38,042 nt of DNA from a virus, in IMG/VR virus record IMGVR_UViG_3300030108_004320, positions 1 through 38,042 of that record, one strand, 5' to 3'. This document shows positions 10,827-35,217 of the stretch, piece by piece. A program made the position numbers and the translations under genes. The first letter of the stretch is position 1, and every line of letters starts with the position of its first letter. The notes under the pieces were generated by a model. It was given only the letters and a program-made list of their open reading frames with translations. It did no database searches and had not been told where the DNA came from.

Positions 10827-11095
10827 ATGGCTATTTCTAGAGCACAGTTGGCCAAGGAACTTGAACCCGGACTTAATAGTTTGTTTGGAATGTCATATGA
10901 CAGCTACGGGGGTCAAGAATATGCTGATATATTTACAGTAGAGGACTCTCAAAGGGCGTTTGAAGAAGAAGTGCTTCTGACGGGCTTTGGGGCAGCGCCG
11001 ACTAAGGTCGAAGGCGCTGGTGTCGCTTTTGATAATGCAAACGAGGGGTTTACGGCGAGATATACGCATGAAACTGTCGCGTTAGCATTTGCGCT
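10827..11095 (+). CDS. Major capsid protein, exon 1
   Basis: Exon 1 encodes the first 89 codons plus two bases of codon 90, beginning MAISRAQLAKELEPGLNSLF behind AAGGAGAATG. Unspliced reading continues into the intron and stops at TAG 11121-11123. Splicing after T11095 to A11382 restores codon 90 as CTA (Leu) and reads FAL-TEEAIEDNLYDS without a gap. The joined protein is 306 aa, a normal size for an HK97-fold capsid protein of this phage type, and the sequence through the junction resembles uninterrupted homologues as I know them. Confidence 0.88.
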
Positions 11096-11381
11096 TGAAG
11101 AAATCGGTGGGCGTGCTGCGTAGGAATACGCAGCTAATAAACGTGGTGAATTCAGGGAACCTCTCCATGGAGACAATCCTGAGCCAAGCCTCGAAAGAGG
11201 AAGGTGCAACGACTATCCTGAAAAGGAGTACGGCCAAGCGGTCGGAAGCGCCACGCACCCAGAACGGGTGAAGATATAGTCTGGTCTGCATGGTGACATG
11301 CAGCGGTTCTGGAAACAGAACGGGGTCGAGAGTAGCGAATCGATCTGAACAAAAAAAGTTGTTATAAATCAACAACTTGCG
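11096..11381 (+). ncRNA. Group I self-splicing intron (subgroup IA-like)
   Basis: 286 nt with the conserved core visible. P1: exon UGCGCU pairs with the guide GGCGUG (11110-11115), giving a U-G pair at the 5' splice site. P10: UCGGU (11104-11108) pairs with ACCGA (11383-11387) of exon 2. Other helices: P2 (CTGCGTA/TACGCAG, 11116-11133); P4 CAGG/CCTG; P6a CCTC-GAAA-GAGG; P7 GACTA (11211-11215) with TAGTC (11277-11281); P7.1 TCCT-GAAA-AGGA; P8 CTGCATG-GTGA-CATGCAG; P9 GTTCTG-GAAA-CAGAAC; and a last stem AAGTTGTT/AACAACTT before the terminal G11381. AAGATATAGTC and CAATCCTGAGCCAAG are classical signatures. The P4-P5 strand resembles the T4 td intron. There is no open frame for a homing endonuclease. 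Confidence 0.93.
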
Positions 11382-12033
11382 AACCGAAGAAGCGATAGAG
11401 GATAACCTTTATGACTCTCTAGGTAAGAGATATGTGAAAGCGCTCGCGCAATCCATGGCTCATACCAAAGAGGTGAAAGGTGCGGATGTACTGAACAATG
11501 CGTTCAGCTCGTCTTTTACTTTAGGTGACGGTGTTTCTCTGATTAACACGGCGCACCCGCTGGCTGGCGGTGGCACTGCTGCGAACAGAGCGACAACGAT
11601 GGCCGACCTCAATGAAACCTCACTAGAGGATGCATTGATTGACATCTCTACCTTTACCGACGATCGAGGTCTTACGATCAGCGTACAGGCAACTAAGCTT
11701 GTGGTTCCACCACAGTTAGTATTCGTTGCTGACCGTATACTGAACTCGCCCGGTCGAGTAGGGACCGCGGACAACGACTTGAACTCAATCAGGAATACAG
11801 GGGTTATTCCGGGTGGTTACACAGTGAACCATTACTTAAATGACCCTGATGCGTATTTCTTGTTGACTACGGTCACCGAGTCTGGCGAAGGTCTCAAAAT
11901 GTTCCAAAGAACTGCCATGGAAACTTCCATGGAACCTGACTTCACTACTGGCAATTTGTTGTACAAAGCCAGGGAGCGTTTCAGTTTTGGGGCGAGTGAT
12001 TGGAGGGGTGTATACGGTTCACAAGGAGCCTAA
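11382..12033 (+). CDS. Major capsid protein, exon 2
   Basis: Exon 2 provides the last base of codon 90 and the remaining 216 codons, starting TEEAIEDNLYDSLGKRY and ending SDWRGVYGSQGA. The frame is open upstream only to a TTG inside the intron's terminal stem, so independent translation is unlikely. It contains the capsid body (for example HPLAGGGTAANRATT and PPQLVFVADRILNSPGR). A strong terminator follows 35 nt after the stop, closing the head operon. Confidence 0.88.
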
Positions 12034-32801: not shown

Positions 32802-32844
32802 TTTGTATAAAAGTGTAGACATCGACACGGTAATTTGAGATACT
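32802..32844 (+). promoter_or_regulatory. Promoter with phage motif, copy 2
   Basis: TTTGTATA at 32802, TAGACA (32816-32821), 17 nt including CGACACGG, then GATACT (32839-32844). The motif 32802-32830 matches the copy at 33514 at all but one base. Confidence 0.65.
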
Positions 32845-32853
32845 TCTTTTGTC

Positions 32854-32870
32854 GGGAGGATGGTCCTCCC
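32854..32870 (+). promoter_or_regulatory. 5' leader hairpin
   Basis: GGGAGGA / TCCTCCC with a TGG loop, followed by ACTAACGGAG and ATG. The ACTAAC(C)GGAG ribosome-binding leader recurs before the genes at 34137 and 34403. Confidence 0.6.
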
Positions 32871-32884
32871 CACTAACGGAGAAG

Positions 32885-33178
32885 ATGATGGAAAACGAAT
32901 TCGACGTCTACCTAGAAATCATTCACAACATCGTGCGTGTTGAGGCTCGAAGAATCAGCAAGGGCTACAAGTTTGTTGCCATAGAGGCTAATGGCACGGA
33001 ACACATTGTCAGAAAAAAAAGCGGCAAGCTGCGATGCACTGCTCATTTTCACACGGTGCATATAAACGACAATGTTAAAGAAGATAATTTGGCGGCTCGC
33101 ACCCAGTGTGCAAAAACAGCCACATACGCAGGATCAGAAATTTATGTCAGATCCTTACCAATAACGGTGGCCGCGTAA
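32885..33178 (+). CDS. Small early protein, unknown
   Basis: 97 aa from ATG 32885 behind CGGAG; reading further upstream would run through the leader hairpin. Predicted alpha/beta, basic. The gene ends AA followed by TAA within a perfect hairpin (33169-33184). No family recognised. Confidence 0.65.
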   Translation: MMENEFDVYLEIIHNIVRVEARRISKGYKFVAIEANGTEHIVRKKSGKLRCTAHFHTVHINDNVKEDNLAARTQCAKTATYAGSEIYVRSLPITVAA

Positions 33179-33448: not shown

Positions 33449-33467
33449 CGACTGCAACTGATGAGCT

Positions 33468-33492
33468 GGGCCGCTTTGCGGCCCTTTTTTTT
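33468..33492 (+). terminator. Rho-independent terminator with hammerhead-like lead
   Basis: GGGCCGC-TTT-GCGGCCC stem followed by eight T. It is immediately preceded by CAACTGATGAG (33455-33465), the same string found in the hammerhead at 34066. No GAAA or stem III follows, so it cannot be a complete ribozyme. Confidence 0.9.
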
Positions 33493-33513: not shown

Positions 33514-33559
33514 TTTGTATACAAGTGTAGACATCGACACGGTAATCTGGCATTATAAT
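33514..33559 (+). promoter_or_regulatory. Promoter with phage motif, copy 3
   Basis: TTTGTATA at 33514, TAGACA (33528-33533) and CGACACGG, followed by CATTAT at 17-nt spacing or a perfect TATAAT at 20 nt (33554-33559). It re-starts transcription after the terminator for the genes from 33592. Confidence 0.65.
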
Positions 33560-33591
33560 GTCTGTTATTAAGACAAACCGGAGTAATCGAA

Positions 33592-34056
33592 ATGGCAAAG
33601 ATCCTAGAAACCAAAAGCCTAGTTAACGGTGGGTATATTCAGCTCATCAGAATCCGCAAGACTTTCAGAACTGAGTTGGTTGAAGAAGACGGTTGGAAAA
33701 TTGTTCGGAATCACAGATTCTCAGACAGCGCTCTAAAGAGATTCTCTAAGTTTGCTCATCACCCGCGACCGGTTACAAAGGAGCAAGCAGCAGCGTCTAA
33801 TTTGATCCGAATCCCCAAGCATTTCTACGACGATTGCGTATATTGTAAGTTCCAAGTTGTCCCGATTGAAAGGGAAACCGAAGCGCATTATTGGATTGAT
33901 GTAAGTAAGGACTCGGACGGGCTAAAAGAACTAATCTCTAGAGCCGACTCTTACGCAGATCTAGAAGTGTCACCTGTATATAAGGAGTATGCAAAAGTCG
34001 TGACAAGCGCCAAGGAGCTGCTCAAGGCGCTAGAAGGTGTTTCTTTGCAGGGGTAA
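33592..34056 (+). CDS. Early protein, unknown
   Basis: 154 aa behind ACCGGAG. The N-terminal half is basic and beta-like, the C-terminal half acidic and helical. Two Cys in DDCVYCKF could bind metal. No family recognised. It is followed by the first hammerhead ribozyme, so its mRNA 3' end would be produced by cleavage at 34111. Confidence 0.7.
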   Translation: MAKILETKSLVNGGYIQLIRIRKTFRTELVEEDGWKIVRNHRFSDSALKRFSKFAHHPRPVTKEQAAASNLIRIPKHFYDDCVYCKFQVVPIERETEAHYWIDVSKDSDGLKELISRADSYADLEVSPVYKEYAKVVTSAKELLKALEGVSLQG

Positions 34057-34061
34057 CAATA

Positions 34062-34117
34062 TTCCAACTGATGAGATGGGCGGGTAGTTCCCGCCCCGAA
34101 ACCGAAAGGTCTTGGGA
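34062..34117 (+). ncRNA. Type I hammerhead ribozyme 1
   Basis: Stem I: UUCCAA (34062-34067) with UUGGGA (34112-34117), one G-U pair. Core CUGAUGA (34068-34074). Stem II: G34075-C34097, then a two-base AU bulge and GGGCGGG/CCCGCCC with loop UAGUU. Core GAAA (34098-34101). Stem III: ACC / GGU with a GAAA loop (34104-34107). Cleavage site GUC at 34109-34111. The bulge in stem II is unusual. The 3' product would begin UUGGGAAACUAACCGGAG, placing the next ribosome-binding site close to the new 5' end. Confidence 0.8.
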
Positions 34118-34136
34118 AACTAACCGGAGAAAAAAA

Positions 34137-34328
34137 ATGGATCGAATAGCACACGAGATTGAAGTTTTAGAGTATACGATCGAAGGTTACATCAACGATT
34201 GCCGATCGATTATGGGAGTCCAGTTTTTTGGTGACGATTATGATTGGGAGTCTGACAAGCAAGTTCAGGGATTAAGAGAAAAGATCAGTGAACTCAGACA
34301 GATTCAACAAGGAATACTAACTGACTAA
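34137..34328 (+). CDS. Small helical early protein
   Basis: 63 aa from ATG 34137; reading upstream in this frame merely translates the ribozyme. Acidic helical protein (IAHEIEVLEYTIEGYIND, then LREKISELRQIQQG), possibly a small coiled coil. It stands between two hammerhead ribozymes, so a short monocistronic mRNA would result. Confidence 0.65.
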   Translation: MDRIAHEIEVLEYTIEGYINDCRSIMGVQFFGDDYDWESDKQVQGLREKISELRQIQQGILTD

Positions 34329-34383
34329 TCCAACTGACGAGGCTGGATGGTAACCAGCCGAAACCCCCGCTGGGGGTCTTGGA
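34329..34383 (+). ncRNA. Type I hammerhead ribozyme 2
   Basis: Begins directly after the upstream stop. Stem I: UCCAA (34329-34333) with UUGGA (34379-34383). Core CUGACGA (34334-34340). Stem II: GGCUGG/CCAGCC with loop AUGGUAA. Core GAAA (34360-34363). Stem III: A-U plus five C-G pairs (34363-34377), loop GCU. Cleavage after GUC (34376-34378). All conserved bases are present and all helices are regular. The ribosome-binding site ACCGGAG follows 7 nt downstream. Confidence 0.88.
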
Positions 34384-34402
34384 AAACTAACCGGAGAAAA
34401 AG

Positions 34403-34582
34403 ATGGAAATAAATTTAACAGTCTCAGAGAAAGACTTCCTTTGTAGATTGCTAAAAGAGGAAGCAAACAATTTGTTGGATGATCTAGACGGAGAAAAGGA
34501 AATTTCAGAAACAGCGATTAGGCTTTTGAATGATGCTCATGATTTTGTGAGCCGACTGAAACGTAAGATCGAAGAAACTTAA
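34403..34582 (+). CDS. Small early protein (59 aa)
   Basis: Starts at ATG 34403 behind ACCGGAGAAAAAG and ends at TAA 34580-34582. Acidic helical peptide beginning MEINLTVSEKDFLCRLLKEE. It is the last gene of the early-type operon and converges on the GNAT gene. Function unknown. Confidence 0.65.
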   Translation: MEINLTVSEKDFLCRLLKEEANNLLDDLDGEKEISETAIRLLNDAHDFVSRLKRKIEET

Positions 34583-35217
34583 TCTCCGGTGGGGGGAGCT
34601 TCGGCTCCCCCTTCTTCTGCCTCCTCTAAAATCTGCTTGCGATACTGAAGCAGTGCCTTACCCCGCAGCATACTATTCTGACTCTTATCTTTGTTGCGCT
34701 TAGCCCAGAAGCTTGCGTCTTTCTTTTTAGTGCTAGGTTCTAGCACGATGCTCGGCTGGTCTCCGAATAGATCGGCTTTGGTTTGCTTAAACCATACATT
34801 TATATCTCTCATACGGCGCACGCCTCCGGCCTGGATATCTACACACTTAAACCCCATAAGATCCCAGAATCTGTTTGCGGCGATGTCTGATCCGCACCGC
34901 AAAGATATGCCGCTGATGTAACTCATTTGCCCCAGCCCCTCTAACATATTCACTAAGCCAGCACCGTACCAGTTACCGCGCAGGTCATACTCGATACAAG
35001 CCTGATGAATCTTTAGTGGCCGATCGACAGACATGCTGCCATGGTAGAGATAGCCAGCGTGTTGATTGTTGACGAGCGCCAGCAGGATTCTCTCTTTGTC
35101 TATCTCTCTCTCGAAAACTTGTGTTGGATAGAACGCCAGCTCCTCAGCGTTTTTCTTTTGCAGGTAGTCGATGAAGACTAAGTCATCGACAGATGCATAG
35201 CGGATCTCAAGCTCCAC
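34579..35217 (-). CDS. GNAT-family acetyltransferase
   Basis: 212 aa from GTG 35217. The GNAT core is at residues 10-130: ACIEYDLRGNWYGAGLVNML holds the acetyl-CoA-binding R-G-x-x-x-G/A-type loop, and NRFWDLMGFKCVD the C-terminal strand-helix. About 80 residues of basic and low-complexity tail follow. Phage GNAT proteins may modify host proteins or nucleotides; substrate unknown. Its start overlaps the upstream gene's stop in a tightly coupled minus-strand operon. Confidence 0.75.
   Translation of the reverse strand: MELEIRYASVDDLVFIDYLQKKNAEELAFYPTQVFEREIDKERILLALVNNQHAGYLYHGSMSVDRPLKIHQACIEYDLRGNWYGAGLVNMLEGLGQMSYISGISLRCGSDIAANRFWDLMGFKCVDIQAGGVRRMRDINVWFKQTKADLFGDQPSIVLEPSTKKKDASFWAKRNKDKSQNSMLRGKALLQYRKQILEEAEEGGAEAPPTGD
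34592..34611. terminator. Convergent hairpin terminator
   Basis: GGGGGAGC-TTCG-GCTCCCCC, an 8-bp stem with a TTCG loop, then a pyrimidine-rich stretch. It serves the plus-strand operon, while on the minus strand it lies in the last codons of the GNAT gene. Confidence 0.7.

Follow-up and report, generated by a model that had tools for sequence, protein, structure and literature searches.

Type I hammerhead ribozymes between co-directional small genes in a phage of aquatic bacteria: anatomy, relatives and probable role in mRNA processing

The two gaps around a small phage gene almost certainly hold real, functional-looking type I hammerhead ribozymes, judged by their letters and pairing, and elements of the same build are found between genes in many phage contigs. 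Self-cleavage probably yields single-gene mRNAs with promoter-like leaders, a reading based on sequence, structure, covariation, placement and interchange with promoters. The stretch of DNA analysed, called the window below, comprises positions 1 to 38,042 of IMG/VR record IMGVR_UViG_3300030108_004320. The source virus record has 55,555 bases in total (window together with L125), and the host context of the phage is aquatic bacteria.

The three-gene unit and its two hammerheads

The two hammerheads, HHR1 and HHR2, belong to a unit of three small genes. The features of this unit are listed by window position.

33528-33559, + strand: predicted promoter of the unit, a consensus match only; -35 TAGACA at 33528-33533, extended -10 TGgCATTATAAT
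33592-34056, + strand: 154-aa gene, first of the unit; no significant family, homologues in contigs L135, L136 and L137
34062-34117, + strand: HHR1, type I hammerhead; stem I UUCCAA/UUGGGA, core CUGAUGA and GAAA, predicted cut after C34111
34064-34067 and 34068-34074, + strand: HHR1 stem I 5' strand CCAA, and CUGAUGA
34075-34097, + strand: HHR1 stem II; closing G-C pair, 2-nt AU bulge, then 7 bp; loop UAGUU
34085-34089, + strand: HHR1 loop II UAGUU, pseudoknot 5' strand
34098-34101 and 34101-34110, + strand: HHR1 GAAA, and stem III (3 bp, GAAA loop)
34111 and 34112-34115, + strand: HHR1 C17, and stem I 3' strand UUGG
34118-34122, + strand: HHR1 pseudoknot 3' strand AACUA, in the leader of the 63-aa gene and abutting ACCGGAG
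34123-34129, + strand: ACCGGAG, ribosome-binding site of the 63-aa gene
34137-34328, + strand: 63-aa gene, second of the unit; homologues in L121 (100%) and L122 (89%)
34329-34383, + strand: HHR2, type I hammerhead; stem I UCCAA/UUGGA, core CUGACGA and GAAA, predicted cut after C34378
34330-34333 and 34334-34340, + strand: HHR2 stem I 5' strand CCAA, and CUGACGA
34341-34359, + strand: HHR2 stem II (6 bp, loop AUGGUAA)
34348-34351, + strand: HHR2 loop II UGGU, pseudoknot 5' strand
34360-34363 and 34363-34377, + strand: HHR2 GAAA, and stem III (6 bp)
34378 and 34379-34382, + strand: HHR2 C17, and stem I 3' strand UUGG
34386-34389, + strand: HHR2 pseudoknot 3' strand ACUA, in the leader; one G-U pair with UGGU
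34390-34396, + strand: ACCGGAG, ribosome-binding site of the 59-aa gene
34403-34582, + strand: 59-aa gene, third of the unit, adjoining the HHR2 leader
34591-34610, + strand: terminator-like hairpin closing the unit, GGGGGGAGCUUCGGCUCCCC, with a weak U tail

In both elements three helices surround the core, stem I being the open-ended one, and the conserved core C3UGANGA9, the G12AAA and the NUH cleavage site (GUC) are exact in each. The 10.1-11.1 G-C pair is G34075-C34097 in HHR1 and G34341-C34359 in HHR2, and the A15.1-U16.1 pair is A34101-U34110 and A34363-U34377, respectively; both pairs are invariant in the 29-sequence alignment described below. With further pairing, stem I can reach 6 bp in HHR1 and 5 bp in HHR2. 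A preliminary description of this DNA had reported type I hammerheads with a full core, GUC and CCAA/UUGG in both gaps around the 63-aa gene, each cutting about 10-15 nt before an identical ACCGGAG. All of this was found as described: the predicted cuts, at 34111/34112 and 34378/34379, both lie 11 nt upstream of ACCGGAG and leave leaders of 25 nt (HHR1) and 24 nt (HHR2).

The core pattern with the UUGG arm has 2 matches in the window, compared with 0.03 per shuffle. When stems I, II and III were included in the descriptor, HHR1 and HHR2 were the only matches across the 55,555-base record, and 30 first-order Markov shuffles of the record gave none. A third copy of CAACUGAUGA, at 33455, was rejected as a ribozyme, as it leads into a terminator and lacks the GAAA half. 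The segment CAACTGATGAGCTGGGC at 33455-33484 (+ strand) has the same letters as the 5' half of hammerheads of this family, e.g. that of L033, and is fused to a terminator (GGGCCGCTTTGCGGCCC, then T8) downstream of the preceding gene. It looks like a hammerhead relic turned terminator.

The three small proteins (154, 63 and 59 aa) have no significant match in Pfam or PHROGs, and no similarity was found between the locus DNA and annotated phages. Promoter-consensus matches number 4 against 3.1 expected from shuffling. The unit promoter sits within a repeat, TGTAGACATCGACACGG, which is also present upstream of the gene at 32888 and recurs ahead of the first genes of units in related phages.

Some further features of the window were recorded. 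The promoter-like repeat TGTANACAWCGACACGG is found at 32816-32844 and 33528-33559, and many related contigs have copies before the first genes of units; the copies in relatives include an TGTATACA-like palindrome that could be an operator. At 32850-32880, as well as in L121 and L033, promoter-led leaders carry a hairpin, GGGAGGAUGGUCCUCCC, followed by CACUAACGGAG. These leaders resemble stem II and the pseudoknot partner of the hammerheads without the catalytic core, and may form a 5'-end structure of a related kind. At 11087-11303 (+ strand) there is a group I intron (RF00028, 93.6 bits), just 5' of a reading frame at 11377-12033 which matches the Mu gpT head protein; the intron probably interrupts a head gene.

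Relatives, covariation and detection by Rfam

The preliminary description had suggested looking for the same arrangement in related phages, and in viral contigs it turned out to be common. The pattern CCAACUGANGAG..CGAAAC..GUCUUGG, which demands only the closing pairs of stems II and III, is present in at least 119 stretches of viral contigs, and a second stem I pattern, CCCA/UGGG, in at least 120. Two control patterns, one core-dead (one base altered per core block) and one with a non-pairing stem I, had 0 matches in viral contigs. Bacterial and archaeal genomes gave 2 matches, one of which is a real hammerhead in a Clostridia MAG; the other was discarded as a coincidence within coding sequence, without stems. 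Among the matches listed, stem II is 4 bp or longer in 109 of 113 unique CCAA elements (small 5' bulge allowed), and uninterrupted stems of that length are found in 65% of the listed CCAA elements versus 8% of shuffled inserts. The terminase-based relatives Pelagibacter phage HTVC027P, 023Pt_psg01 and DSL-LC04 have no hammerhead by descriptor in the first 50 kb; the elements are therefore not a constant feature of that phage group.

Other forms were also seen. Besides a CCAA hammerhead, L031 and L056 each carry five that have other stem I sequences; they precede successive genes, each with a different paired stem I. A second hammerhead class, with loop II UGARAUU and without the leader pseudoknot, is found in L049, L065, L070 and L106. 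Directly after the cut it has a hairpin, and the loop of this hairpin can pair with loop II (AGAUU/AAUCU in L070, for example); this may be a kissing-loop variant.

Where stem II is long, loop II contains four bases that are complementary to positions +8 to +11 after the cut. The pairs found are UGGU/ACCA, UAGU/ACUA, UGGC/GCCA, UAGC/GCUA, UGAU/AUCA and UUGC/GCAA. Four Watson-Crick pairs in register are present in 67 of 90 elements among the matches listed, as opposed to 0 of 90 at shifts of 1-3. Shuffling of partners among the distinct pseudoknot types did not reach the observed pairing in any of 10,000 trials. Since the stems were partly selected by the descriptor and the pseudoknot was required by no search descriptor, only the pseudoknot count is free of selection.

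A 29-sequence alignment, in which stem III was trimmed to its first and last four bases for equal length, has 97.6% of cells paired. Fifteen of its 20 pairs are changed on both sides, and every helix has such two-sided changes. The covariation score is 0.516, three times the shuffled mean of 0.174, and at most 0.113 when the alignment is slid. We counted pairs instead of using a covariance model because such models cannot hold a pseudoknot, which here is the most informative helix. Orthologous copies behave in the same way: the orthologue of HHR1 after the 154-aa gene in L136 has its pseudoknot switched on both sides (UAGU/ACUA to UGGC/GCCA), and the orthologue of HHR2 in L121, which lies next to genes for an identical 63-aa product and for a 59-aa product at 92% identity, differs in stem III and loop II but retains the pairing. 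Covariation of orthologous and unrelated copies, including the pseudoknot, thus strongly supports selection for structure. The differing stems with pairing kept had already been taken to point this way; the covariation is extensive and includes the pseudoknot, which was not part of that earlier account.

Folding energies are less favourable. The minimum free energy fold of HHR1 alone under a nearest-neighbour model is another fold, the hammerhead ensemble being 5.7 kcal/mol less stable; for HHR2 the gap to the preferred fold is 1.6 kcal/mol. The model leaves out the pseudoknot, tertiary contacts and co-transcriptional folding, but its preference for other folds is a real point against easy folding. 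The architecture of HHR1 (2-nt bulge, 7-bp stem II, 5-nt loop) occurs in about 20 unique phage elements among the matches listed.

An Rfam covariance match had been proposed as a check, and none was obtained at gathering score. A search of the whole window gave no hammerhead model at even E = 1. On short regions, HHR1 scored 19.5 bits with Hammerhead_HH9 (RF02275), and HHR2 scored 23.1 bits with RAGATH-1-hammerhead (RF03152) and 19.2 bits with Hammerhead_1 (RF00163). These scores of 19-23 bits compare with cutoffs of 34-56 (34 for Hammerhead_1). The best sub-threshold alignments are all to hammerhead models, and they place the hammerhead core correctly. At the cutoffs, eight loci with about twenty clear relatives likewise gave no match, and an element of Pseudomonas phage PaP3 reached 17.1 bits, under the gathering score. 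The absence of an Rfam match is uninformative here because well-formed relatives and the PaP3 element fail the cutoffs too, which makes the proposed check a poor one; the gathering score is a detection threshold, not a defining feature of a ribozyme. The three models do not describe the short stem I and leader pseudoknot of these elements. The hammerhead cutoffs of Rfam release 15 are a blind spot by which standard annotation hides a common phage mRNA-processing feature.

Placement, promoter interchange and proposed role

Placement was scored as an upstream same-strand gene end together with a start codon with ribosome site at most 60 nt from the cut, and only elements with enough flank were counted. 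Among the matches listed, 106 of 115 elements of the CCAA set lie in this way between a gene end and the downstream start codon, compared with 336 of 2300 random positions for this first set; the CCCA/UGGG set repeats the placement (109 of 115 among the matches listed). HHR1 and HHR2 themselves adjoin co-directional adjacent phage genes. In the matches listed, the ribozyme typically starts 0-5 nt past the upstream stop codon (median distance 0-2 nt). In about 20 of the 115 elements of the first set and 18 of the 115 of the second, the longest upstream reading frame apparently stops at the UGA of CUGANGA, so that in about a sixth of the listed elements the end of translation would fall within the ribozyme core. 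A type I hammerhead is cut close to its 3' end, which leaves almost the entire structure on the upstream message and a short leader on the downstream one; this would suit a processing site.

The same genes may be led by a hammerhead in one phage and by a promoter in another. The 63-aa gene has a hammerhead before it in the window, a promoter in L122 and no more than a ribosome site in L121. For the 154-aa gene, the repeat promoter lies upstream both in the window and in L136; in these two another gene comes next, and a hammerhead stands between the two genes. In L135 what comes after the 154-aa gene is a plain gap, and in L137, where this gene is the last of its unit, a terminator. Further genes, about 86-93% identical between phages, likewise have a hammerhead in front in one phage and a promoter in another, among them the 130-aa gene (L085 versus L108 and L136) and the 135-aa gene (L010 versus L121). 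Leader sequences are shared as well: GCCAACAAAGAUAAGGA is promoter-led in L122 and hammerhead-led in L085, and AACUAACCGGAGAUAAA is both promoter-led and hammerhead-led within L010. Predicted promoter leaders have a median of 25 nt, similar to the 25 and 24 nt of the hammerhead leaders in the window, a match that is suggestive, with promoter start sites predicted from consensus; over the CCAA set the median hammerhead leader is 30 nt among the matches listed. Some homologues lack both kinds of lead, namely the 63-aa gene in L121 and, in L135, the gene that comes after the 154-aa gene; these genes therefore do not depend on processing.

Cutting in the cell is very likely. A phage transcript starting at about 33564-33566 would span the three small genes to the terminator at 34591-34610. 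During transcription of each gap, stem II would form and loop II would pair with four or five leader bases, after which the RNA would cut itself co-transcriptionally after C34111 and C34378. The upstream message would keep the catalytic body as a 3' untranslated tail with two hairpins and a 2',3'-cyclic phosphate end. The downstream message would begin with a 5'-hydroxyl and a leader of 25 or 24 nt, its ribosome site released from the pseudoknot and stem I. The product would be three single-gene mRNAs with leaders like those from the phage's own promoters, and the cut may affect ribosome access and the protection of the new RNA ends. The preliminary description had proposed that a polycistronic RNA is split into mRNAs with defined ends. 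This is still the best explanation, backed by the placement and by the hammerhead-led and promoter-led orthologues, and it is not a new one, as it is found in Perreault et al. 2011 (PMC3088659).

A more far-reaching form of this reading, which we put forward tentatively, is that the hammerhead might be an interchangeable substitute for a promoter, i.e. a mobile 5'-end module giving the same short leader to any small accessory gene whether inside a unit or first in it, with the pseudoknot closing the ribosome site until the cut. If this is true, ribozyme cutting is a standard and widespread step in the expression of phage genes which goes unnoticed in present annotation. What hammerheads do in bacterial viruses has been debated ever since their first description there. 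Genes that are ribozyme-led in one phage and promoter-led in another are ready natural experiments on this role, which is now open to testing.

A switch coupled to translation appears unlikely, although the anatomy offers something for it. Uncut RNA would hide the downstream ribosome site, terminating upstream ribosomes would sit on the 5' half of the ribozyme, and cleavage and translation would compete; the output would be relative protein levels and not the separate mRNAs in themselves. The pseudoknot and stem I lie within the initiation footprint. The 3' strand of the pseudoknot does end right at ACCGGAG, and among the matches listed the upstream stops are close to the ribozyme or are the core UGA. 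However, compact phage genomes would yield the same spacing without coupling, and a hiding role is not required of a pseudoknot that is known as a general aid to hammerhead speed (PMC3088659).

It is still less probable that the elements are passive passengers or footholds for recombination, where repeated intergenic sequence lets small accessory genes swap and cleavage brings no benefit. The same small genes are indeed seen beside different neighbours across phages, with or without hammerheads. Passengers would decay, yet the stems and pseudoknot covary around an intact core, and the two-sided helix changes in orthologues destroy sequence repeats and keep the structure.

We regard as highly improbable a regulated ribozyme, in which an RNA, a protein factor or an ionic condition controls cleavage and downstream expression. 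Such control is a general suggestion for slow phage variants and for the halovirus hammerhead (PMC3088659), but the cores here are canonical rather than those of slow variants, loops II and III are small (3-7 nt), and no conserved extra domain was seen. Chance resemblance of ordinary or terminator-like hairpins to a hammerhead core, for which the missing Rfam match at gathering score and the alternative fold of HHR1 might be cited, is effectively refuted by 0 matches in shuffles and in the two control scans of the same collection, and by the covariation.

Comparison with known systems

Hammerheads of all types have been described in the genomes of phages and prophages, frequently several of them around small genes, and long phage transcripts were proposed to be processed into operon- or gene-length mRNAs (PMC3088659). 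In that study a loop pseudoknot stabilises the fold in all three types and speeds cleavage. Both the mechanism and the processing idea are therefore prior art. The elements described here are like those of PMC3088659 in being several close together, in flanking small phage genes and in having a loop pseudoknot. Those examples are mainly prophage clusters of varied types, whereas a uniform type I is found here in many phage contigs. The present form has a 4-bp pseudoknot between loop II and the leader and fills the gap from stop codon to leader; individual metagenomic sequences may overlap those of PMC3088659.

The Rfam-negative element of PaP3 and one in LUZ24 (Bruynoghevirus) have stem I CCAA/UUGG, the same core and a UGAUU/AAUCA pseudoknot, and in LUZ24 the predicted cut, at 2480/2481, lies 28 nt ahead of the gp6 start. 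Compared with those of the window, these elements have a longer stem III, were found as one copy per genome instead of two, and belong to unrelated phages and genes. An active PaP3 hammerhead has been reported (PMC3088659), with PaP3 placed among variants with core changes. We found no other hammerhead candidate in PaP3 with up to one mismatch in CUGANGA. The element tested in 2011 is likely the CCAA/UUGG element described here, whose core is canonical though the paper lists core-changed variants.

In haloviruses HF1 and HF2 a transcript 5' end is within 3 nt of the hammerhead cut (cited in PMC3088659). This HHphage hammerhead is similar in lying a few nt before the start codon of a phage gene, and different in its variant core, the high salt need of its analogue and its archaeal virus. 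Theta ribozymes of gut phages are also self-cleaving, with a proposed role in phage RNA processing; they differ in having an HDV-like fold at tRNA 3' trailers, not mRNA leaders (PMC10879173).

Judged against the open-access literature, what is added here is a uniform anatomy seen across many elements, a leader pseudoknot that covaries, the exchange of hammerhead and promoter, and the blind spot of Rfam. With elements of the same type, the Pseudomonas phages LUZ24 and PaP3 offer a tractable model.
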